From: Acidobacteriaceae bacterium
GTDB lineage: Bacteria > Acidobacteriota > Terriglobia > Terriglobales > Acidobacteriaceae
DNA length: 39,899 nucleotides
Reading direction: 5' to 3'
NCBI GenBank assembly: GCA_025355505.1
Contig: JANXZM010000119.1
Span: 1 to 39,899 of the forward strand
This document shows, one piece after another, positions 147 through 20,199 of the stretch (its first letter is position 1; each line of letters starts with the position of its first letter). Below the pieces are notes generated by a model. That model saw only the letters and a program-made list of their open reading frames with translations. It was not told where the DNA came from and did not search any database. Both the position numbers and the translations under genes were made by a program.

Positions 147-176
147 TTGGCGCCGGGGAAAGCCGTGTAGTACACT
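147..176 (+). promoter_or_regulatory. Possible promoter of the RiPP-like operon
   Basis: A TTGGCG at 147-152 and a TACACT at 171-176 are separated by 18 bases and could be -35 and -10 boxes. The -10 lies inside an 11-base palindrome, GTGTA-G-TACAC (165-175), which could be an operator. It starts about 10 bases outside the IS end and about 70 bases before the first gene. The match is modest and based on sequence only. Confidence 0.3.
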
Positions 177-204
177 GCCCTTACTCTTATCAAAACTGGG
201 GGAT

Positions 205-236
205 AAGCCAGCTTTTCTTTTTTGACCGGCTGGCTT
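205..236 (+). promoter_or_regulatory. Leader hairpin before the RiPP-like operon
   Basis: AAGCCAGC (205-212) pairs perfectly with GCTGGCTT (229-236) across a 16-base, pyrimidine-rich loop. The structure ends 8 bases before the ATG of the precursor-like gene, in the place where a ribosome binding site would be expected; none is obvious there. It could affect translation of the first gene or mRNA stability. The stem is seen directly; any function is inference. Confidence 0.35.
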
Positions 237-244
237 GATCGACT

Positions 245-424
245 ATGACCGACAATCGGACCACTCGCGATAAGCCTCAGCACCCGGACAGCGCGGGTAA
301 GGAAAAGAAGCTCTACCAGAAGCCGGCATTCCGCTACGAACGGGTTTTCGAGACCCTTGCTCTCTCTTGCGGCAAGATCGCCGGCACCAGCTTCAATTGT
401 AATTCCCAGCGAAAGACTTCCTGA
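245..424 (+). CDS. Putative RiPP precursor peptide (59 aa)
   Basis: A 59-aa ORF whose TGA overlaps the ATG of the next gene (TGATG at 422-426). The first ~22 residues are hydrophilic and charged. They are followed by KKLYQKPAF, which contains a YxxP motif (Tyr24-Pro27), the feature of leader peptides bound by PqqD-like RRE domains in lasso-type pathways. The C-terminal part (from about Phe35) reads FETLALSCGKIAGTS and includes Cys42 and Cys52. Cys, Ser, Thr and Lys residues there are candidate sites for radical SAM crosslinking or phosphorylation. It sits directly upstream of peptidase, HPr-kinase-like, PqqD and radical SAM genes. Its role as substrate is inferred from size, motif and position; core boundaries and the modification are unknown. 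The start at 245 lacks a clear Shine-Dalgarno sequence. Confidence 0.65.
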   Translation: MTDNRTTRDKPQHPDSAGKEKKLYQKPAFRYERVFETLALSCGKIAGTSFNCNSQRKTS

Positions 425-972
425 TGCTGGAAAACGCCACCAGTGTGGCGCACTCGATTTGGAGCGCTGAACGCTCAGCTTTGCTGGCAGATACTTTGCG
501 TCTCAGCCCTCGTTTGGGTTCGAGCGTGCGTCTGTGCGTTCACGGCGAAAGCATGCTTCCCACTCTTTGGCCGGGCGATGTGGTCGAGATCGCAAGTTGC
601 TCGCTCCAAGACCTCCGGCCCGGCGAGATCGTGCTCGCCCGGCGTGAAGGCCGCCTCTTCCTTCATCGCCTCGTCGCCCCCTGCACCCCGAACGGCTTCC
701 TGCTGCGCGGTGATTCCATGCCTGGTCCTGACCCTCTGTTTTCTTCCGAAGCACTGCTGGGCCGGCTCGTGGGCAGCGCTAACCAAGGGCGAGTCGGCTC
801 TGCACCCGCTCTGCGCCCAGGCTTTGGCGTGAAATGGTCGCGCGCGCTGGGAATGCTGTTTTGTCATTGCGGCGTGGCACGCCGTCTTGCTCTGAAACTT
901 CACAGCCGCCGGAAGGCATCGGCGCGCGAATTTCGAACTCCTAAAGGCGCTGCGGAGATGGAAGCCTTCTGA
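424..972 (+). CDS. S24/S26-family peptidase (signal-peptidase-like), RiPP operon
   Basis: 182 aa. The motif GESMLPTLWPGDVVEI (residues 41-56) is the signal peptidase/LexA-type serine motif with Ser43 as nucleophile. In the position of the general-base lysine there is a histidine (FLHRLV, His81), as in the S26B (archaeal/SipW-type) branch. GDSMPGPDP (96-104) continues the fold. There is no clear N-terminal membrane anchor; the C-terminal 60 residues are basic and partly hydrophobic. The start overlaps the stop of the precursor-like gene and the stop overlaps the start of the kinase-like gene, so translation is probably coupled. Inference: it cleaves the leader of the modified peptide. An ordinary secretory signal peptidase is less likely given the neighbours and lack of transmembrane helices. 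Confidence 0.75.
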   Translation: MLENATSVAHSIWSAERSALLADTLRLSPRLGSSVRLCVHGESMLPTLWPGDVVEIASCSLQDLRPGEIVLARREGRLFLHRLVAPCTPNGFLLRGDSMPGPDPLFSSEALLGRLVGSANQGRVGSAPALRPGFGVKWSRALGMLFCHCGVARRLALKLHSRRKASAREFRTPKGAAEMEAF

Positions 973-1793
973 TGGCCGCGCCCCGAAAAATTGCGTGCGT
1001 TGAGATCGGAGGGATCCCGATTGCCTTGTCCACCTCTGACGATCGCTTCCTCGATCTGCTCCGCCAGCGCTACCAAGGCTTCCTCAGTTCTTCTCGTCCC
1101 GAGTTTGAGCTTGAATTTGATCTCACCCCTACCGGACCGGCTTCCGATGACGACGTTCGGGTCCGCCGCGACGGTGATGAGTGGCTGCTGGAGCGCGGAG
1201 ACTTCCACGCCCGCTGGGACCCGCGCACCGGACGAGGCAGCGTGCGGCAAAATGCCAACCCGTATTCTCTCGATTCGGTGCTGCGCATTCTGCACAGCCT
1301 GATTCTGGCGCAACGCGGCGGTTTCCTGCTGCACGCCGCCAGTGCAATTTGCGGTGGCCGGGCATATCTCTTCTCCGGCGTATCGGGCGCCGGCAAAACC
1401 ACCATGACGCGACTGGCTCCCGCCGACATCACCCTGCTTACCGACGAAATTTCCTACGTGCGCCCCAGCGCTGACGGGTACGCGGCATACGGCACTCCTT
1501 TCGCCGGAGAGCTGGCCAAGTCCGGTGAGAACTGCACAGCTCCGGTCTCCGCTCTCTTTTTCCTGGAGCAGGGTCCGGAGAACCGCGTCGATGAGTTGCC
1601 GCCCGCCGACGCCGTCCGCCGCCTGATGCGCAATATTTTGTTCTTCGCCGAAGACCGCCGCCTCGTCGAAAAGCTTCTCGACACAGCATGTCATTTCGTT
1701 TCCAGGGTTGCCATTCGCCGCCTGACGTTCTATCCTGATGGCAAGGTGTGGGACCAGGTTCGCAACTTCCACGGAGTGCCCGAGCATGCCTGA
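972..1793 (+). CDS. HPr kinase-like protein in RiPP operon
   Basis: 273 aa. The C-terminal half has the HPr-kinase/PEPCK-like P-loop: LLHAAS with His121 (equivalent of the HPrK active-site His), Walker A GVSGAGKTT (136-144), and an acidic pair in LLTDEIS (Asp158-Glu159). HPr kinase homologues of this shortened kind occur in RiPP loci; in paeninodin-type lasso clusters such a kinase phosphorylates a serine of the precursor (known for that family). The N-terminal ~110 residues are not recognisable as a specific domain. It starts on the shared A of a TGATG junction with the peptidase gene and overlaps the PqqD gene by 8 bases (ATGCCTGA). Inference: phosphorylation of the precursor or a sensory kinase role. 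There is no HPr/PTS gene nearby to support carbon regulation. Confidence 0.75.
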   Translation: MAAPRKIACVEIGGIPIALSTSDDRFLDLLRQRYQGFLSSSRPEFELEFDLTPTGPASDDDVRVRRDGDEWLLERGDFHARWDPRTGRGSVRQNANPYSLDSVLRILHSLILAQRGGFLLHAASAICGGRAYLFSGVSGAGKTTMTRLAPADITLLTDEISYVRPSADGYAAYGTPFAGELAKSGENCTAPVSALFFLEQGPENRVDELPPADAVRRLMRNILFFAEDRRLVEKLLDTACHFVSRVAIRRLTFYPDGKVWDQVRNFHGVPEHA

Positions 1794-2091
1794 AAATTGC
1801 ATTTACATTACGCGCAGTTCTGCGATTGCTGCCCGCGCGCTGGCCGGCGAGATGATGGTCATGAATTCGGTCGATTCCACTTTCTTCACTCTGAACGAAG
1901 TCGCGACCGCCATTTTTCAAGCCGCCGATGGCCATACTCCCCTGCGGGAAATTGTCCGCGACCGGGTCTGCGGGCAATTTGACATCGATCCCGAACAGGC
2001 GCTGGCGGACGCCGAGCAGTTCGTCGCCGAGCTCTCCAGCCACGGAATTCTTCTCGTTTCCAATCAACCTCTAGCTTCGGAGGCGCCCTGA
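1786..2091 (+). CDS. PqqD-like RiPP recognition element protein
   Basis: 101 aa. It shows the PqqD pattern: a degenerate beta hairpin with VDSTFFTLNEVATAIFQ (the Y/F-x-LN-x-x-A-x-x-I/W motif), then ADGHTPLREIV and a C-terminal helix (ADAEQFVAELSSHGIL). PqqD-like proteins bind leader peptides and deliver them to radical SAM/SPASM partners, which fits the YxxP-bearing peptide upstream and the radical SAM gene downstream. A longer reading from 1738 exists, but the ATG at 1786 starts the conserved domain and overlaps the upstream stop by 8 bases. Its stop TGA shares its last base with the ATG of the radical SAM gene. Confidence 0.85.
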   Translation: MPENCIYITRSSAIAARALAGEMMVMNSVDSTFFTLNEVATAIFQAADGHTPLREIVRDRVCGQFDIDPEQALADAEQFVAELSSHGILLVSNQPLASEAP

Positions 2092-3197
2092 TGAGCCTGA
2101 TGAGCGAAGTAGGCCAGAAGGCATTCAACCTGGGCGTGCCCATCGCCGTGCACATGGACGTCACCTATCGCTGCAACGAGCGCTGCGTGCATTGCTATCT
2201 CGATCACGACGACCACGGAGAGTTAACCACCGCCGAAGTCAAGGACGTCCTCGATCAACTGGCCGAGGCAGGCGTCTTCTTTATCACGTTCAGCGGCGGC
2301 GAGGTCTTCATGCGCCGCGACTTTTTTGAGATTGTCGAATACGCCCGGCGTCTCATGTTCAACGTCAAGATCAAGACTAACGCGGTGATGATCCACGAAG
2401 ACGATGCGCGCAGAATTCGCGAACTGGGCGTGGACACCATCCAGATCAGCGTCTACTCCCATCGTCCCGAAGTTCACGATGCCATCACCAAGTTGCCTCA
2501 CTCCTTCGAGCGCACCATCAAAGCCATTCGCTTCTTGCGCGAACAAGGCCTAAGAGTGACCATCGCCAACGTGCTCATGACCGCGAATTCTTTCGATCAC
2601 AGCGAAGTGCAGAAGCTGGCCGCCGAACTCGGCGTGCAGTACACACTCGATCCCACGATCACGCCCATGATGGACGGCGACACATCCGTTCTCTCGCTGC
2701 GCATTCCGGGCGAAGAACTTCCGGAAATTTTTCACAATCCTGCCCTGGTCGGCAATCAGGACGAGTTCTGCGCTCCTCCCAAGCCGCCCTCGGAGGAGGA
2801 CCTTGAGGGTTACTCCTGCAGCGCGGGCCATTCTTTCTGCTACATTTCGCCCTACGGCGATGTCTTTCCCTGCGTGCAGTTTCCCCTCCCCACGGGGAAT
2901 ATTCGTCACCAGAAGTTTTTGGATATCTGGAATTTTTCCCCGGAGATGAAAGAGGTTCGCTCGATCCAGGCCAAAGACCTGACCGTCTGCTCCTCGTGCT
3001 CACATGTCGGCAGTTGCACCCGTTGTCCAGGCTTGGCCTATATGGAAGGAAGTATGCGCGGCCCATCCACCGCCGATTGCGAGAAGTCGTTCTACCGGAC
3101 GGGCGTGCCCACGGCCAACATGCTGCAGCAAGGGCTGTCCAAACCACGCACCACCATACCCCTGATCCAGATTCGGTCGATCGCTGTTCCCGCATGA
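2091..3197 (+). CDS. Radical SAM/SPASM peptide-modifying enzyme
   Basis: 368 aa. The [4Fe-4S]-SAM motif CNERCVHC (Cys28, Cys32, Cys35, CX3CX2C) and the SAM-binding GGE (69-71, FSGGEVF) are intact. The C-terminal SPASM region (about 265-345) has FCYISPYGDVFPC, CSSCSHVGSCTRC and a final Cys in TADCEKSF, enough cysteines for auxiliary clusters. Family members with a PqqD partner install C-C or thioether crosslinks, epimerise or oxidise peptide side chains; which of these applies cannot be read from sequence. It is the last gene of the coupled operon and ends 14 bases from the convergent c-di-GMP gene. No transporter gene is visible in the operon. Confidence 0.85.
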   Translation: MSLMSEVGQKAFNLGVPIAVHMDVTYRCNERCVHCYLDHDDHGELTTAEVKDVLDQLAEAGVFFITFSGGEVFMRRDFFEIVEYARRLMFNVKIKTNAVMIHEDDARRIRELGVDTIQISVYSHRPEVHDAITKLPHSFERTIKAIRFLREQGLRVTIANVLMTANSFDHSEVQKLAAELGVQYTLDPTITPMMDGDTSVLSLRIPGEELPEIFHNPALVGNQDEFCAPPKPPSEEDLEGYSCSAGHSFCYISPYGDVFPCVQFPLPTGNIRHQKFLDIWNFSPEMKEVRSIQAKDLTVCSSCSHVGSCTRCPGLAYMEGSMRGPSTADCEKSFYRTGVPTANMLQQGLSKPRTTIPLIQIRSIAVPA

Positions 3198-3211
3198 TGC
3201 GGGAGTGCCGG

Positions 3212-5992
3212 CTACAGTGTGCTCCCGGCTGCGGCATTGTGGCTGCGCTTTAGATCAACCACCGCTTCCAAGCTGGCCAATTGCTCCAGGATGCGCTGCA
3301 AGCCGGCACGGACCTCATGCGTCGCTTCATTGAACTTCAGCGCCGCTCCTATACCCATGTCCATCCGCACCACTTCGCTTTCAATCGAAACGTTCGTATG
3401 ATCGTGCGAGAAGGTCAGTTTCAACTTCGATCCCGGCAGCAGCAGGCCGCTGCTTTCAACATAGCAGCCGCCCAGGCTCAGGTTGGTAACGATGCCCAGC
3501 GTCGCCCGTTCTTGACCCTCTCCAGAAATTTCGGCAGTAAGTCGGCCCCGCACCCGCGGGTACAGACGGTGGTTCTTCGGTGTCGACTGACTCTGCTTCT
3601 GCAGATACATGCGTTTGTCGGCTTCCGACAGGATCTTTTCCGCATCCATTCCATCTTCCGGAAACACCGACTTGCCAACGCTCAACGATAGAATGTCCTC
3701 GTTGCAGACATCCTTTCCCGCTTGTTTTGCCAGCTCCCGCATCTGCTCCGCTTTGCGCGCGGCAGCTTCCGACGTGAGTCCAGGAGCAATCACCACGAAT
3801 TCGTCGCCGCCCATGCGCGCAACATAATCGTACTCACGGCTGGTTTCCTTCAGGGAGTGCGCAAACAGCCGCAGTACGCGGTTCCCCTCCAGGTGTCCGA
3901 AGCGGTCGTTGATCTGCTTGAAGCCGTCCAGGTCGGCGACCATCACGGTCAGCGTTTTGTTGTCGCGCTTGCAGCGTGCCAGTTCCCGGTCGAGTTGTAG
4001 GAATAGCGAGCGCGCATTGGGAAGACCGGTGAGGTAATCGGTGACTGCCGAACTCTCCGCCTGCTCGTACTTCATCGCATTTTCGATGGCGAGCGCCATC
4101 TTCGAACTTACCGCGAGCAAAATGCGCAGGTGGTCGGAGGTGAAGAAATCTTTTTCCGCGTGGTACAAAGCCACCACCCCGGCTACGCCCTGCAAGCCCT
4201 CGAGCGGAATGGCAAGGGCTGAGTTCAGCGTGCTGTACTTTGAAGCATCGTTCAAATAACCGGGCTCAACCGAAGGATTGCCATTCAAAATCGGTTTAAG
4301 GTTTTGCGCTACCCACCCCGAAAGTCCTTGTCCCATCGGAATGCGCAGCGAGGCAAACAGCCGAAAGTTGTCGCCATTCACATATTCCGGCACAAGTTCA
4401 TCGCCTTGACGCACGTAGATCGCAATCGCATCGTAGGGCATCGCTCTCCGCAGCTTCACCGCAAACACCGAGAGCGTTTCGCCCAGACTGAGCGAAGCCC
4501 CTAAATCCTGGCTGAGTTCGAAAAGCGTCTGCGCTTCCTGTCGCGCCGCCGCGATCGAAGCCAGAAAACTGCGCTCCGGCAATTGCCGCTGGCCCTCCTC
4601 CTCGAACCCGGTTGCCGGCTTGATCGCCGACTCCGCCTTTGCGCCCTGATCTTTTACCTCCGTGGATAACTTCTGCTTACCCAAGCTGTCGGTGCGTTGG
4701 TGGACCAGTTGCTCCAGATCCACATATCTTCGTTCGAGCACCTTGACCACTTGCGGATCAAAGGACTTTCCCGATTCATCCGACAGTCGCGCCATCGCTT
4801 CATCCAGAGGCAGCGCCCGCCGATATTGCCGATCTGACGCCAGCGCATCCAGAAAATCGACCGCCGCCAATATCCGGGCGCCTATCGGAATCTGTGTCCC
4901 ACTCAATCCCAGCGGATAGCCGGTCCCGTCGAACTTCTCGTGATGGGCCCGTACGATGGGCACTACCGGGTATGGAAAGCGCACCCGTTCCAGAATTTCC
5001 GCTCCCACCAGCGGATGAATCTTCATTTTCTCGAATTCCGCCGGTGTCAGGCGGCCCGGTTTCGAGATGATGTGCTCGGGAATCGCCAGCTTGCCAATGT
5101 CATGCAGCAAGGCTGCGGCTTGCAAGGCATCCATTCCATCCCGGTCTATCTTGAGCTCCTTCGCAACCTCGATGGCGTAGACGCGAACTCTCTGCAAGTG
5201 GTCGTGCGTCGTCTGATCCTTGGCCTCGATGGCCAGTGCGAGCGCCTCAATCGTGCGCATATGCAGGTCGGCCATCTCTTCTACGTGCCGCTTCTCGTCT
5301 TCCAGTTTGCCGAGATAAAGGCGGTAGGAACGGTAGATGAGGTACGCCACCGGAAGCGTCAGCAACGACGTCTGCCAGTCGGTAAAACCGTGCAGCCAGC
5401 TCATCATGCCCGCCACGCCCGCACCCACCAGGTAGTACGGAAAGCTCCAAAAATAGCCGTCTGCCCAGATCTTTCGCAGCGATTTTCGCTCCGTCAATGA
5501 GCTGACCGCCGCAACCGGAAGCGTATTGGCCACAAAGTAAACGCATGCCGCCAGAAATAGCAGCGTAGAGGGGTTACTTACCGCGCGCTGCGACAAAGAA
5601 AAACGATACGCGGCGAAGGTCGCCGCGATGGCAAGCGCTGTCGAGCTGACGTTGAAAGCGACATGAATCGGAAGCGGGCGATCACGGTCGAAGCACTGCA
5701 CTACCACCGCCGCACAGCCCAGCGCCATGGCTTCCGACAAGCTCAGTTCCAGCACACCCAGCAGCAGAAATAGAAAGTTCACCGACATCGTCCCGGTAAT
5801 CCCGGGCAGGTTCACCTTGAGACGCGAGGCTGCCAGCGCAATCACCAGGTAACAGAAAAATTTGAGCGGATTCTCGCTCCGGCCATGCAAGATCGAATAG
5901 GCCAGGACGCTCATCCCGCAGAGCACGACCACAGCTATAAAAAACCGTGGCGCCGCGCTCATGTCCCTCCAGGATTGAGGGTGAGTTTTCAT
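3212..5992 (-). CDS. HD-GYP / GAF / GGDEF / PilZ c-di-GMP signalling protein
   Basis: A reading frame of 948 codons is open from 6058, but the ATG at 5992 is preferred: AGGAG lies 10 bases upstream and nothing comparable precedes 6058. Domain order (numbering from 6058): about six membrane segments (38-245), HD-GYP phosphodiesterase (265-450; His319-Asp320 and HHEKFDGTGYP at 372-382), GAF sensor (506-665), GGDEF cyclase (670-825; intact GGDEF 750-754 with an inhibitory RxxD site, Arg741-Asp744, five residues upstream) and a C-terminal PilZ domain (RVRGR 835-839 and NLSLGG 859-864). It therefore carries apparently intact motifs for making, degrading and binding c-di-GMP. A location in the inner membrane is predicted. 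Net activity and the signal are unknown. Confidence 0.9.
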   Translation of the reverse strand: MKTHPQSWRDMSAAPRFFIAVVVLCGMSVLAYSILHGRSENPLKFFCYLVIALAASRLKVNLPGITGTMSVNFLFLLLGVLELSLSEAMALGCAAVVVQCFDRDRPLPIHVAFNVSSTALAIAATFAAYRFSLSQRAVSNPSTLLFLAACVYFVANTLPVAAVSSLTERKSLRKIWADGYFWSFPYYLVGAGVAGMMSWLHGFTDWQTSLLTLPVAYLIYRSYRLYLGKLEDEKRHVEEMADLHMRTIEALALAIEAKDQTTHDHLQRVRVYAIEVAKELKIDRDGMDALQAAALLHDIGKLAIPEHIISKPGRLTPAEFEKMKIHPLVGAEILERVRFPYPVVPIVRAHHEKFDGTGYPLGLSGTQIPIGARILAAVDFLDALASDRQYRRALPLDEAMARLSDESGKSFDPQVVKVLERRYVDLEQLVHQRTDSLGKQKLSTEVKDQGAKAESAIKPATGFEEEGQRQLPERSFLASIAAARQEAQTLFELSQDLGASLSLGETLSVFAVKLRRAMPYDAIAIYVRQGDELVPEYVNGDNFRLFASLRIPMGQGLSGWVAQNLKPILNGNPSVEPGYLNDASKYSTLNSALAIPLEGLQGVAGVVALYHAEKDFFTSDHLRILLAVSSKMALAIENAMKYEQAESSAVTDYLTGLPNARSLFLQLDRELARCKRDNKTLTVMVADLDGFKQINDRFGHLEGNRVLRLFAHSLKETSREYDYVARMGGDEFVVIAPGLTSEAAARKAEQMRELAKQAGKDVCNEDILSLSVGKSVFPEDGMDAEKILSEADKRMYLQKQSQSTPKNHRLYPRVRGRLTAEISGEGQERATLGIVTNLSLGGCYVESSGLLLPGSKLKLTFSHDHTNVSIESEVVRMDMGIGAALKFNEATHEVRAGLQRILEQLASLEAVVDLKRSHNAAAGSTL

Positions 5993-6282
5993 TTCCAACG
6001 AACTCCTGCCCGGGAAGCCGGGCTGCAATTCCCAGGGGGGAAATATAGGAATACTCATTGATAACAGGCACCGGACGGGCAGAAAAGCATTCGGATATTT
6101 GCAGGTAAACTTCCGTAACGGGGGACAGTGACCTTTTGGCCGTGCTTTACCCTTCGAGCGTCGAAATACAGCTCTTAAGCCAAAGACAACACAGTGCTAG
6201 CCGCCGTCTCGTTTCGCTTGCAATCAATAAAACGGGCGCCCTCGGCTGCTGACAACCGCGCAATCATACAACGTAAAAGCGG

Positions 6283-16449: not shown

Positions 16450-16560
16450 GTAATGGTTCGTAATATTACACCGAAAGCTCGCAGTTCCAGCACCCGAATT
16501 TTTGCCTGGGCGAACCAGGCCGCTGGCAAACATTCGAGTTTAGCGCCCAGGAGCCTCGCC

Positions 16561-19500
16561 ATGTTTGTCCGTTTTTTTCGCCTGCAAACTTACTCGGCTT
16601 TTTTTCTTTTTACGGTTTTCACTGTTGTTACGCCGCTATGGGCGCAAAAAGACGCCGGAGCCATTGTCGGCCTGGTGCGCGACAGCAGCGGTGCGGTGGT
16701 TACGGGCGCCACGGTCACCGTGGAGGACGTGGATCGCGGCATTCAACTCACCCTCTCCACGAGCGATCAGGGAGAGTATGTCGCCAGCCCGCTCCGGATC
16801 GGCCGTTACAGTGTCACGGTCGAAAAGGAGGGATTCAAGAAGGCGGTTGCTGGCCCGATTCAAGTGAACATCCAGGATCGGGTCGGCGTTAATCTGAAGC
16901 TTCAGCCTGGCATGACAACGGAAGTGGTCACGGTCACCGGCGAGCGTGCGCAGCTCGAAACCGAAACTTCCGAGCTGGGCCAGGTAGTGGACAGCCGGCG
17001 GATCAACGCGCTTCCCTTGAACGGACGCAACTACGCGCAACTCGCTCTTCTCGGCACTGGCGTCGCACCGGCTGAGCCCGGATCGCGCGTCGAAACCACC
17101 TTCGGATTCAGCGCTGGCGGTGCCCGTTCCCTGCAAAACAACTTTCTGCTCGACGGCATCGACAACAATGCGAACCTTGGCGACGTGCTCAACGGATCGG
17201 CATATGTGATCCAGCCCTCGGTAGACGCCATCGCCGAGTTCAAAGTCGAGACCAATTCGTATAGCGCCGAATTCGGCCGCGGCAACGGAGCCATCATGAA
17301 CGCCGTGATCAAATCTGGCACCAACAAGATTCACGGCGATGTGTTTGAGTTTCTGCGGAACGAAAAATTTGATGCCATCAACGCCTTCGACAGCGGCCAG
17401 CAGCCATACAAGCAGAATCAGTTCGGCTTTACGCTGGGCGGGCCGATCATCAAGAACAAAACCTTTTTTTTCGGGGACTACGAAGGCCTACGCATTCGCC
17501 AGGGGCTACCGCAACTGTCCACGGTTCCCACGCAAGACCAAATTGGCGGAGACTTTTCCGCGCTTCTCGACCTGAACACTCCAGCGATCGCCGTCGATAT
17601 GAATGGCAATCCTACCAATCAGAATGCGGTGGACTGCAGCGGCAATCCAACTTATCAGGGAGAGATATTCTACTCGCGGCAGGCACAGCAAAATCGATTC
17701 GACCGAAACCCCAACGGCCTGTGCGGCGTCCCTATCGGAGGCTACGCCCCTGGCGGACTGCCGGCCAACATATTCAACGGCACCAACGGCAGCATCGATC
17801 CGCTGGCGGCACGCTTGGCTGCGCTCTTTCCCCTGCCCAATAGCGGTCTGCCCGGCGGCAATTTTCTATCCGATCCCAAGCGCAGCGAAACCCAAAACAA
17901 GTTCGATGTCCGCCTCGATCATACGTTCAGCGAAAAGGACAATTTCTTCGCCCGCTTCAGCTACGGCAAAGACAACACTTTCTTGCCCTCGCCTTTCAAC
18001 AACGTGCTTGACGGCGGCAGCTTTCAGGATGGCTACAGCGAAAACTCAGCCCGCGGCCTGGCCGCCAGCGAGGTCCACACTTTTCGCAACAACCTGATCA
18101 ACGAATTTCGTTTCGGCTTCAACCACCTCAACTCCCACCGCTTCAATCTGAACTACAACGTTGACGTGTCGAAGCAACTCGACTTTCCCGGAGTTCCCTT
18201 CGGGCCGAACATCGGCGGCCTGCCTTCCATTGGCTTTGCCGATGGCACAACAGCCATTGGCAGTTCCGGATATCTGCCGTCGCTCGAAAAGCAGCACAGC
18301 TACGTTCTTACCGACAACTTGAGCTGGACCCGAGGCCGCCACGCCGTAAAATTTGGCGCCGAACTTCGCTTCGAACAATTCACCATATTCCAGCCGGCCT
18401 CTCCTCGTGGCGACATGAGCTTCGGCAGCGACTTCACCGACAATCCCGCCTCCCCGGGATCTGGCGGCGAGTCGATCGCGACCTTCCTGCTCGGTATTCC
18501 TGACGGCGGAGATATCACCAGCCTGCATAACGTTGACTACCGCCGGCAGATTTACGCGGTCTATGGTATTGACGACATCAAAGTAACTCCGCGGCTCACA
18601 CTGAACTTAGGTCTGCGTTACGAACTCTTCACTACCATCAAAGAGGCGAACGACCAGGCCGCGACGTTTGATTTCAACTCGCTCTCGTTGATCGTTCCCC
18701 GCGGACAGAACCAGCCATTGACAGCCACGCTCGCCACCGAGCTCAATGTTCAGCGCAACGGTTCCCGCGGACTGATCAGTCCCGATCTCAATAATTTCGC
18801 ACCGCGCATTGGGCTCGCCTACCAACTGTCCGACAAGCTGGTCCTCCGCGGCGGGTACGGCATCTTCTATGGCGGACAGGAAAACGGCCCATTCTCCAAC
18901 CCGAGTCCCGGCTTCAATCCTCCGTACTTTGACTCGCAGAATTTCTCCCCGTTCTGCAGCGCGGCATCCGCAAATTCTGATAGTGGCCAGCTCGACTGCT
19001 CGATCTCGGCCACGAACTCTGGCTTGCCGCTGAACGTCCTGAAGGATGGTTTTCCCGCCGGTTCGCTCACCGATCCGAACACGCCGAACCTCTACTCCCT
19101 CGATCCGCACCTGGTCACACCTTACACGCAGCAGTGGCACATGGGTCTCGAGTATCAGTTGCCCCACGACACCGTTCTCGAAGTTTCCTACGGAGGCTCT
19201 CGTGGATTGAAACTCTTCGCTTTCTACAATGGCAACCAAGCCGTTCCTACCGCGAACGCAACGGACGCGACCGCGCCGCGGCGTCCTGCCCACAATGCCG
19301 CCCCTGACGCTTCCGGTTCCTGCACTTTGGCGACCCCCGACAACTGCAATCCGGCGCTCGATACCGGCATCGGCACGTTCCGTTCGAATACACAATCGAA
19401 CTACAACTCGCTGCAAGTTCGCCTCGAAAAGCGCTTCTCGCATGGACTCCAGTACGAAGCGGCGTACACCTTCTCGCACGCCCTAGACAACGCTTCAAGC

Positions 19501-20199
19501 GCCAGCCTCGGCTCGGTGAACAACGGAGATTTTCAAGACCAGCGATTCCCCAACGCCAACTACAGCAATGCTGATTTCGACGTGCGCCACCGCTTCGTTT
19601 TCAGCTATGTTTACGATTTGCCCTTTGGCCGCGGACGCATGTTTGCCAAAAACGCTTCCGGCGTCGTGAATCAGATTCTCGGCAACTGGCAAATGACCGG
19701 CGTCTTTTCCGCCGCCACCGGCAATTACTACACCGCGACTGACATCGTTTCGGTCGCCAATGCCGATTGCGGCGGCACCGTCGGCTTTAATTGCGCCCGC
19801 CCCAACCTGGTCGGCAATCCGAACGCCACGCCCTGCGTTCCGGGGACGCTGTTCAACACCTGCGCGTTTGTACACAACGATGTCCAGGGAACGTTCGGCA
19901 ATGCGGGTCGCAACATTATCCAGGGCCCTGGATACAAAACTTGGGACACCTCTCTGGTCAAACAGTTTCCGATTCGCGAGCAAATGCACCTTGAATTCCG
20001 CGCGGAATTTTTCAACATCCTCAACCATGTGAATTATTTGTTTGGACAGTTTGGCGGGATCAGCGCCGAGCCAACGCCCCTGGAACTTGATCCGAATAAC
20101 ATTAATACTGCGACGAACCCTCAAGCGAGCAGTTTCGGATATCCGCTGGCGTCGCGCGCGCCACGGCAGATTCAATTCGCGCTGAAGTTTTATTTCTGA
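16561..20199 (+). CDS. TonB-dependent receptor, Oar-like, with carboxypeptidase-regulatory domain
   Basis: 1212 aa. The ATG at 16561 is preferred over the open frame to 16453: AGGAG is 7 bases upstream and it begins a clean signal peptide (hydrophobic stretch ending TPLWAQ). Then come a carboxypeptidase-regulatory-like beta-sandwich (AGAIVGLVRDSSGAVVTGAT, about 30-110), a plug domain (INALPLNGRNYAQLAL; FLLDGIDNNANLGD) and a long outer-membrane beta-barrel ending in LKFYF with the terminal aromatic residue. This is the receptor type expanded in acidobacteria and thought to import large substrates. Being divergent from a clan-D glycosidase lipoprotein suggests a glycan uptake pair (inference). 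No SusD, ExbB/D or TonB genes are adjacent. Confidence 0.9.
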   Translation: MFVRFFRLQTYSAFFLFTVFTVVTPLWAQKDAGAIVGLVRDSSGAVVTGATVTVEDVDRGIQLTLSTSDQGEYVASPLRIGRYSVTVEKEGFKKAVAGPIQVNIQDRVGVNLKLQPGMTTEVVTVTGERAQLETETSELGQVVDSRRINALPLNGRNYAQLALLGTGVAPAEPGSRVETTFGFSAGGARSLQNNFLLDGIDNNANLGDVLNGSAYVIQPSVDAIAEFKVETNSYSAEFGRGNGAIMNAVIKSGTNKIHGDVFEFLRNEKFDAINAFDSGQQPYKQNQFGFTLGGPIIKNKTFFFGDYEGLRIRQGLPQLSTVPTQDQIGGDFSALLDLNTPAIAVDMNGNPTNQNAVDCSGNPTYQGEIFYSRQAQQNRFDRNPNGLCGVPIGGYAPGGLPANIFNGTNGSIDPLAARLAALFPLPNSGLPGGNFLSDPKRSETQNKFDVRLDHTFSEKDNFFARFSYGKDNTFLPSPFNNVLDGGSFQDGYSENSARGLAASEVHTFRNNLINEFRFGFNHLNSHRFNLNYNVDVSKQLDFPGVPFGPNIGGLPSIGFADGTTAIGSSGYLPSLEKQHSYVLTDNLSWTRGRHAVKFGAELRFEQFTIFQPASPRGDMSFGSDFTDNPASPGSGGESIATFLLGIPDGGDITSLHNVDYRRQIYAVYGIDDIKVTPRLTLNLGLRYELFTTIKEANDQAATFDFNSLSLIVPRGQNQPLTATLATELNVQRNGSRGLISPDLNNFAPRIGLAYQLSDKLVLRGGYGIFYGGQENGPFSNPSPGFNPPYFDSQNFSPFCSAASANSDSGQLDCSISATNSGLPLNVLKDGFPAGSLTDPNTPNLYSLDPHLVTPYTQQWHMGLEYQLPHDTVLEVSYGGSRGLKLFAFYNGNQAVPTANATDATAPRRPAHNAAPDASGSCTLATPDNCNPALDTGIGTFRSNTQSNYNSLQVRLEKRFSHGLQYEAAYTFSHALDNASSASLGSVNNGDFQDQRFPNANYSNADFDVRHRFVFSYVYDLPFGRGRMFAKNASGVVNQILGNWQMTGVFSAATGNYYTATDIVSVANADCGGTVGFNCARPNLVGNPNATPCVPGTLFNTCAFVHNDVQGTFGNAGRNIIQGPGYKTWDTSLVKQFPIREQMHLEFRAEFFNILNHVNYLFGQFGGISAEPTPLELDPNNINTATNPQASSFGYPLASRAPRQIQFALKFYF

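Follow-up and report, generated by a model that had tools for sequence, protein, structure and literature searches.

An acidobacterial five-gene operon that probably joins phosphorylated-peptide machinery with a radical SAM/SPASM enzyme

Gene organisation of the operon

We report that a stretch of 39,899 bp from an Acidobacteriaceae bacterium (GCA_025355505.1, contig JANXZM010000119.1; hereafter the window) carries five coupled genes encoding a 59-residue peptide (peptide A), an S26-type peptidase, an HprK-like kinase, a PqqD-like protein and a radical S-adenosylmethionine (SAM) enzyme with a SPASM domain (Table 1). Comparison with relatives and with described systems makes it likely that the operon represents a pathway for a phosphorylated ribosomally synthesised and post-translationally modified peptide (RiPP), similar to those of the linear polyphosphorylated peptides (LPP) and some lasso peptides, to which a radical SAM/SPASM step would have been added.

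Table 1. Predicted features of the operon in the window
Feature	Position	Strand	Characteristics and basis
Precursor peptide A, 59 aa	245..424	+	variable N-terminus; YxKPxF motif, predicted to bind the RiPP recognition element (RRE); FET; core with C42-G-K, C52 and C-terminal S59
Leader recognition/cleavage stretch of A, Y24-x-x-P27 to F35-E36-T37	314..355	+	predicted cleavage after T37 (LPP analogy); alternative before C42
S26 leader peptidase, 182 aa	424..972	+	Ser43/His81, archaeal/SEC11/SipW type; residue conservation, profile matches
HprK/PEPCK-fold peptide kinase, 273 aa	972..1793	+	H121, G136, G139, G141, K142, T143, D158, E159; 33-sequence alignment, AlphaFold2, Foldseek
PqqD-like discrete RRE, 101 aa	1786..2091	+	PF05402, Foldseek
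Radical SAM/SPASM maturase, 368 aa	2091..3197	+	CxxxCxxC at 28/32/35; SPASM Cys 243, 261, 300, 303, 309, 312, 330; Pfam

All five open reading frames (ORFs) that a preliminary description of this DNA had placed at 245-3197 are present, and its junctions could be read off the sequence, i.e. TGATG at 422-426, 970-974 and 2089-2093 and an 8-base overlap at 1786-1793. Its proposal of a RiPP-like operon agrees with the co-occurrence of precursor and enzymes and the conserved gene order in relatives, and its enzyme set (kinase, RRE, radical SAM protein and His-type S26 peptidase) with profiles, folds and conserved residues.

The precursor peptide and its distribution

A peptide search recovered peptide A in 63 of 300 genomes of the same family (own genome included), representing 26 of 79 genera. 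Over 11 sequences from the same genus dN/dS was approximately 0.26, a rough value with synonymous differences of 0.56 per site. Because it is conserved in relatives, has this dN/dS and co-occurs with the radical SAM gene, we judge from the sequences that the 59-residue ORF is a real precursor under purifying selection and no chance ORF. The window peptide matched no Pfam or NCBIfam family, and six of its relatives had no NCBIfam family match.

For the alignment referred to as A1, 50 rows were selected from 66 peptide matches; duplicates, close repeats, fragments lacking a start, copies with read-through or early stop (including L040, L067, L084, L090, the second match in L094, and L095; L numbers denote loci) and others were left out. 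Residues Y24, P27, F29, E32, F35, A39, L40, C42, G43, K44 and C52 are invariant in A1 and the core is near-constant across genera, giving the consensus YxKPxFRxExVFETxALSCGK with a fixed C-terminal Ser. Cleavage of the leader most likely takes place after FET (T37), which we favour by analogy over a site just before C42. The signal-peptidase -3/-1 rule (A-x-S/A before C42) was considered as proof of cleavage at the latter site and dropped as non-discriminating, because several loci lacking S26 also have, by eye, a similar Ala and small residue ahead of the first Cys.

The preliminary description had suggested co-occurrence of the short peptide with the operon as a check, and this is what we found: the radical SAM protein is present in 65 of the 300 genomes, 58 genomes have both peptide and radical SAM gene, five the peptide only, seven the radical SAM gene only and 230 neither (Fisher p 7.7e-48). 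Of the genomes with the peptide only, three gave weak matches (E 0.004-0.008); the operon of G247 is cut by the contig end, and in G298 the stretch examined contains A and S26 alone. After dropping six duplicates there were 58 loci with the peptide and at least one enzyme (the window among them, as well as L121-L123, which lie outside the family), 27 with the peptide alone and 16 with enzymes where the profile found no peptide; two of these 16, L042 and L043, do carry one. Within 4 kb of the peptide in the 58 loci we found S26 (56), kinase (53), RRE (54), radical SAM (55), an NTP_transf_5 protein (28), an ABC ATPase (25), an ABC permease (25) and a protein of a family here called C3 (23).

The order A-S26-kinase-RRE-radical SAM on one strand is kept in 46 of the 58 loci. 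Homologous operons lacking a conserved peptide, which the preliminary description had named as an observation that would speak against it, are therefore mostly not what is seen, with the qualification that some operons have no local copy. Many of the relatives are genomes in numerous contigs, and a profile search of 14 genomes with no or a doubtful local peptide gave seven strong matches, some of them on another contig. Thus, G075, G120, G084, G193 and G076 have no peptide in the operon stretch and an intact copy on another contig, and in G165 the local peptide is decayed and two other copies are intact. The match in G292 is weak (E 0.07), and no peptide was detected at E 0.1 in G009, G014, G051, G213, G216 and G294; in G014 and G294 the radical SAM gene reads in two frames.

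The four enzymes

In the S26 peptidase Ser43, His81, Asp97 and Asp103 are invariant in all 32 aligned sequences, and the top matches of its profile are SEC11C followed by SEC11A (E ~1e-7). Scores against Peptidase_S24 (22.5 bits, cut-off 23.3; Pfam) and TIGR02228 (28 bits) fall below the respective cut-offs, the former just so.

The AlphaFold2 model of the kinase (mean pLDDT 89) matches PEPCK (1.8e-9) and HprK/P (2e-4) in Foldseek, while a single-sequence search of the PDB gave no match and the best NCBIfam match, ScmC, reaches 43.9 bits with a cut-off of 125. In an alignment of 33 kinases, which extends to other acidobacterial families (L121, L123) and other phyla (L042, L043), H121, G136, G141, K142, T144 and D158 are invariant and G139, T143 and E159 are kept in at least 90%. 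The protein thereby carries the residue set of lasso-type peptide kinases, H-G-G-G-K-S/T-D-D, apart from the last position, which is Glu in the same-family loci and L121 and Asp in L042, L043 and L123. In the available text on the lasso kinase BsfK (PMC10368454) the corresponding residues are reported as important, and the spacing from the His is the same for Gly (+15) and Lys (+21) and differs by one for Asp (+37 compared with +38). A role as plain HPr kinase in carbon regulation was rejected because of the operon context, and the model is nearer to PEPCK than to HprK/P.

The PqqD-like protein scores 52.4 bits against PF05402, above the Pfam cut-off, and its model (mean pLDDT 83) matches the TbiB1-leader complex (Foldseek E 1.4e-4, TM 0.83 by target, 1.9 A over 83 columns) and 6jx3, i.e. 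folds of lasso B1 RREs. Finally, the radical SAM protein matches Radical_SAM and SPASM above the Pfam cut-offs; CxxxCxxC is kept in all 66 aligned rows and the SPASM Cys in 62-66 of them. Its best PDB sequence match is SkfB (E 2.9e-16). Among the best 25 of 89 NCBIfam matches no curated sactipeptide or ranthipeptide maturase model exceeds its cut-off (StsB 110.8 of 625, AlbA 85.2 of 850 and SkfB 71.3 of 300 bits); the score against the mycofactocin radical SAM model is 141.6 bits (cut-off 265).

Transporter, nucleotidyltransferase and scattered precursors

According to the preliminary description the operon lacks a transporter. We reject this as an artefact of the contig edge, because the window contig (C73 of the assembly) begins 245 bp upstream of the gene for peptide A and an ABC pair sits at the edge of another contig of the same genome, C85; ATPase and permease genes lie together near the peptide in 25 of the 58 loci. 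On C85 the permease, ATPase and NTP_transf_5 genes occupy positions 175-3283, laid out as in the relatives. The ends of the two contigs have no exact overlap and no blastn match, and the link between them thus rests on this layout.

The 27 loci with a precursor and no enzyme include one in the window's own genome, where contig C13 carries a second precursor distant from the operon. One enzyme set would probably serve such extra precursors in trans. Two weak peptide matches in G000 were discarded: neither the one on C77, where there are no enzymes, nor the one on C106 was recovered by the profile. Genes resembling recR and dnaX were noted by eye in the neighbourhood of several of the orphan copies. 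Elsewhere in the window, at 16453-20199, a large TonB-dependent-receptor-like protein with a carboxypeptidase-regulatory-like N-terminus was noted by eye; such proteins are common in Acidobacteria.

The C-terminal serine

The C-terminal Ser is present in all 50 rows of A1, which is a selected figure; in the unselected set of same-family matches it is 75 of 80, compared with a background of 74 out of 713 mechanically called ORFs. Of the five exceptions (Gly twice, Ala, Gln and one without stop), L040, L090 and L094 read on into other sequence, L095 stops three residues short of the common length and L159 is cut by the contig end. In 46 of the 50 A1 rows the Ser lies seven residues past Cys52. 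As described in the text available to us (PMC9266682), HprK-like kinases (PadeK/ThcoK) phosphorylate the C-terminal Ser of paeninodin-type lasso peptides, and in pseudomycoidin the nucleotidyltransferase PsmN is required for the hexoses on the phosphorylated Ser. The Ser closest to the position of core Ser3 in LPP, four residues after FET and preceding Cys42, is not conserved (Ser in 32 rows, Ala in 15, Thr in two, Arg in one), which favours the C-terminal Ser as the predicted kinase target.

Occurrence outside the family

Relatives of the kinase were detected in 133 of 396 genomes of the phylum (profile search, E 1e-8). From these matches we took 40 loci, among the better-scoring and mostly full-length, and these together with L121-L123, L042 and L043 provided 28 loci outside the family with kinase and radical SAM genes. 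A precursor rule ([YW]xxP, Cys, short ORF, within 900 bases, same strand) returned 22 ORFs, classified by eye as 13 Y-type, five W-type and four noise. All 13 Y-type precursors end in Ser, including those of L042 (Elusimicrobia) and L043 (Bacteriovoracia), while the background in the same scan is 25 of 127 ORFs; six of the 13 are from family f5, two from f42, one each from f61, f38 and f32, and two from the other phyla. The C-terminal Ser is also present in L122, L124, L125 and L126, which were found with the peptide profile, and L121, an eleventh locus without a match to the rule, has a Ser-ending candidate that the overlap filter of the rule skipped. When peptides of all the groups were aligned together (21 rows), the invariant positions were reduced to Y24, P27 and C42.

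The W-type ORFs (L185:7156-7293, L203:6917-7063, L206:7805-7981, L211:6748-6888 and L215:7101-7238), with WxxP or similar and an EPVxFAASCTS..FNCG-like core, lie beside kinase-like and radical SAM genes and represent a second precursor type. Three kinase-like and two radical SAM genes are close together in L192, L194 and L200, which suggests an expanded version of the pathway. In L121 the precursor and S26 genes are separated by a gene for a B12-binding-type radical SAM protein (4703-6118; by eye).

Partner-like proteins beside precursors

The C3 proteins are 570-1040 aa long and have signal-peptide-like N-termini (by eye; e.g. L064:6329-8167, L069:6164-8170 and L092:4025-5932). They are encoded within 4 kb of 16 of the 27 orphan precursors in addition to the 23 operons, and in the 58 loci C3 and the ABC permease are near-exclusive: 21 have C3 only, 23 ABC only, two both and 12 neither, the window being counted among the last because it is cut by the contig end. 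Three members scanned had no Pfam match. The C3 profile gave beta-propeller-type matches to designed propellers, and to TolB/BamB at E 1e-4 to 1e-3; the designed-propeller matches were rejected as an identification, being sums of repeats with no significant single stretch. The window's genome has two C3 homologues, and neither shares a contig with one of its precursors.

Outside the family 21 loci were inspected, and nine of them encode a protein of similarity cluster k2 near the precursor (in L188 with another gene intervening), and the three k2 members scanned with Pfam all contain a C25 (gingipain-family) domain. In other acidobacterial families a large C25 and fn3 protein was noted directly downstream of the precursor (L184:9673-13863, L123:6073-10563 and L194:7167-11186). 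Where the S26 profile mostly finds nothing, the C25 protein is possibly a replacement processing enzyme or a partner.

Comparison with known systems

The preliminary description matched this combination of genes to no named RiPP class. A close relative has since been named, namely LPP, described for lppA, K, B, S, D and N of Paenibacillus alginolyticus (PMC13381572, May 2026), where according to the part of the report available LppS cleaves after FET with assistance from the RRE and LppK phosphorylates core Ser3. Both systems have a discrete RRE, an HprK-like kinase, a SEC11/SipW-type Ser/His leader peptidase, an NTP transferase and an export pump. YxxP in the leader and FET ahead of the core are likewise common to both. 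The operon's peptidase is of the same archaeal type with Ser/His and Asp, as judged from its invariant residues and SEC11 matches; its RRE has the expected fold and is predicted to bind the YxxP leader (Y24 and P27 being invariant in the selected A1 rows); and kinase and NTP transferase recur in the loci as counted above, the window genome's own NTP gene being on C85.

The differences concern, first, the precursor: the LPP consensus as given is YxxPxVLxHQxIxFETxxS with a variable C-terminus, and here YxxP and FET are shared while the tail and the spacing differ, with two residues fewer between YxxP and FET. Second, LPP is presented as linear and restricted to Bacillota, with no mention of radical SAM found in the text available, while the operon adds a radical SAM/SPASM enzyme with a predicted bridge, two invariant Cys in a short core of 18-22 residues (depending on the cleavage site) and the fixed C-terminal Ser. 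Moreover, the transporter is a two-gene ABC-2 type compared with the MsbA-like one of LPP, the host belongs to Acidobacteriota, and precursors are also scattered. Going by that report, the operon would work like the LPP and paeninodin-type lasso pathways and is not a member of LPP, because its precursors depart from the consensus and a further maturase is present.

To the lasso systems of paeninodin and pseudomycoidin (PadeK, ThcoK, PsmK/PsmN; PMC9266682, PMC10368454, as far as available) the operon is similar in the B1 RRE fold, the kinase with matching catalytic residues, the C-terminal Ser, the nucleotidyltransferase and the Y/WxxP-type leader. It has a radical SAM enzyme and an S26 peptidase, and neither the lasso cyclase (C, macrolactam synthetase) nor the transglutaminase-like B2 protease was noticed among the neighbour clusters read, no dedicated HMM search for them having been run. 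With sactipeptides and ranthipeptides (SkfB, AlbA, PapB) it shares a SPASM radical SAM enzyme and a Cys-containing core, and differs in having its RRE as a separate protein and in the added kinase, S26 peptidase and C-terminal Ser. The SynChlorMet cassette of NCBIfam also brings together HprK-like, PqqD-like and radical SAM proteins, but it has two radical SAM enzymes compared with one here, and the scores are all below cut-off (ScmC as given above; ScmD 22.7/100, ScmE 105.7/400 and ScmF 63.5/400 bits); no open-access paper was found under the cassette name.

Proposed pathway and alternatives

We propose the following steps. (1) The PqqD-like RRE would bind the YxxP leader and present it to the enzymes, as motif and fold suggest. 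(2) The HprK-like kinase would phosphorylate the C-terminal Ser59, perhaps repeatedly. (3) The radical SAM/SPASM enzyme would act on the two conserved Cys of the core or on the stretch between them; this is the least certain step, and because A has two conserved Cys a thioether bridge is the most likely product, with epimerisation and C-C or other bridges as further candidates. (4) The Ser/His S26 peptidase would cut off the leader, for which the end of FET is the most likely site and the bond preceding C42 the alternative. (5) Judging from their position, the flanking ABC transporter would serve in export of the product, and decoration of the phosphate may fall to the NTP_transf_5 protein, the latter role being suggested also by comparison with pseudomycoidin. 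Additional precursors in the genome would probably be processed by the same enzymes.

A number of findings weigh against this scheme. The chemistry is a prediction from sequences and models, and FET is not strict, being kept in 44 of the 50 A1 rows and replaced by FVT in five and FEQ in one. With respect to the kinase, Asp-Glu is found where lasso kinases carry Asp-Asp, and LppK (PMC13381572) and BsfK (PMC10368454) are described, in the text available, as acting on an internal core Ser3. Furthermore, only one of the five W-type precursors ends in Ser (L185; not L203, L206, L211 and L215), so that use of a C-terminal Ser cannot be general among the related kinases, and five of the 58 loci (L078, L081, L102, L103 and L122) retain the Ser with no kinase within 4 kb, though the kinase could lie elsewhere in the genome. 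Outside the family, 10 of the 28 loci with kinase and radical SAM genes have no YxxP peptide by the rule, and most loci give no peptidase with the family S26 profile. Some of the 27 orphan precursors are on short contigs, so that their orphan status may be an artefact.

An alternative is a sactipeptide- or ranthipeptide-like antibacterial with Cys bridges, where thioether chemistry would be central and the kinase and nucleotidyltransferase accessory or involved in immunity. A SPASM enzyme with its cluster Cys and SkfB as best PDB match, together with two invariant Cys in A, fits this, but the kinase is about as constant as the radical SAM enzyme (53 and 55 of 58 loci), the maturase models score far under their cut-offs (best 25 of 89 matches) and the cores are near-fixed across genera; antibacterial cores usually diversify. 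We consider it unlikely, and give the same weight to the possibility that a secreted partner, i.e. C3 here and the C25 protein in other families, uses the modified peptide as ligand, cofactor or attachment tag, in which case the peptide would not be a free natural product. Multiple precursor copies per genome with a near-constant core, seen in many genomes, would be expected for such a role, as would the occurrence of C3 near orphan precursors and operons, its near-exclusive relation to the ABC pair and the k2 proteins outside the family. The argument is one of adjacency, and in the ABC-linked form, which is the layout of the window's genome, C3 is usually not near; that genome's own C3 homologues are also apart from its precursors.

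An ordinary LPP system, with the radical SAM gene as a passenger and a linear phosphopeptide as product as in Paenibacillus, would account for the shared set of peptidase, RRE, kinase, nucleotidyltransferase and transporter and for YxxP and FET. It appears improbable, since the radical SAM gene keeps to the peptide in 55 of the 58 loci and also adjoins the kinase gene in further families and, at two loci, in other phyla, and since, going by the available LPP description, C-termini vary and Ser3 is phosphorylated there, while here the C-terminus is fixed and the position before Cys42 is not conserved. A cofactor pathway of the PQQ/mycofactocin type is suggested by PqqD with a SPASM enzyme and by the similarity to the mycofactocin radical SAM protein, and is very improbable, as no further PQQ or mycofactocin genes were seen in the neighbour clusters read (no dedicated search was made) and we know of no role in these pathways for a kinase and a conserved C-terminal Ser.

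Returning to the phosphorylated-RiPP pathway with an added radical SAM step, a broader proposal, which we make tentatively and regard as possible but doubtful, is a RiPP class extending across at least Acidobacteria, Elusimicrobia and Bacteriovoracia. Its members would have a Cys bridge made by the radical SAM enzyme and a phosphate (or sugar- or nucleotide-phosphate) on the C-terminal Ser, with several scattered precursors modified by one enzyme set and a dedicated secreted partner (C3 or C25) encoded beside the precursor.

Significance

The operon would extend the core logic of LPP (RRE, HprK-like kinase, SEC11-type peptidase and nucleotidyltransferase) to Acidobacteriota and join it with radical SAM chemistry, a combination of which we found no description in the open-access literature. 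It supplies residues that can be tested, i.e. Ser59, Cys42, Cys52 and FET. A further suggestion is that peptide kinases exist among the HprK-like kinases of Acidobacteria, relatives being present in 133 of the 396 phylum genomes. Finally, because precursors here often pair with secreted proteins, these loci offer a route to asking what phosphorylated RiPPs do.

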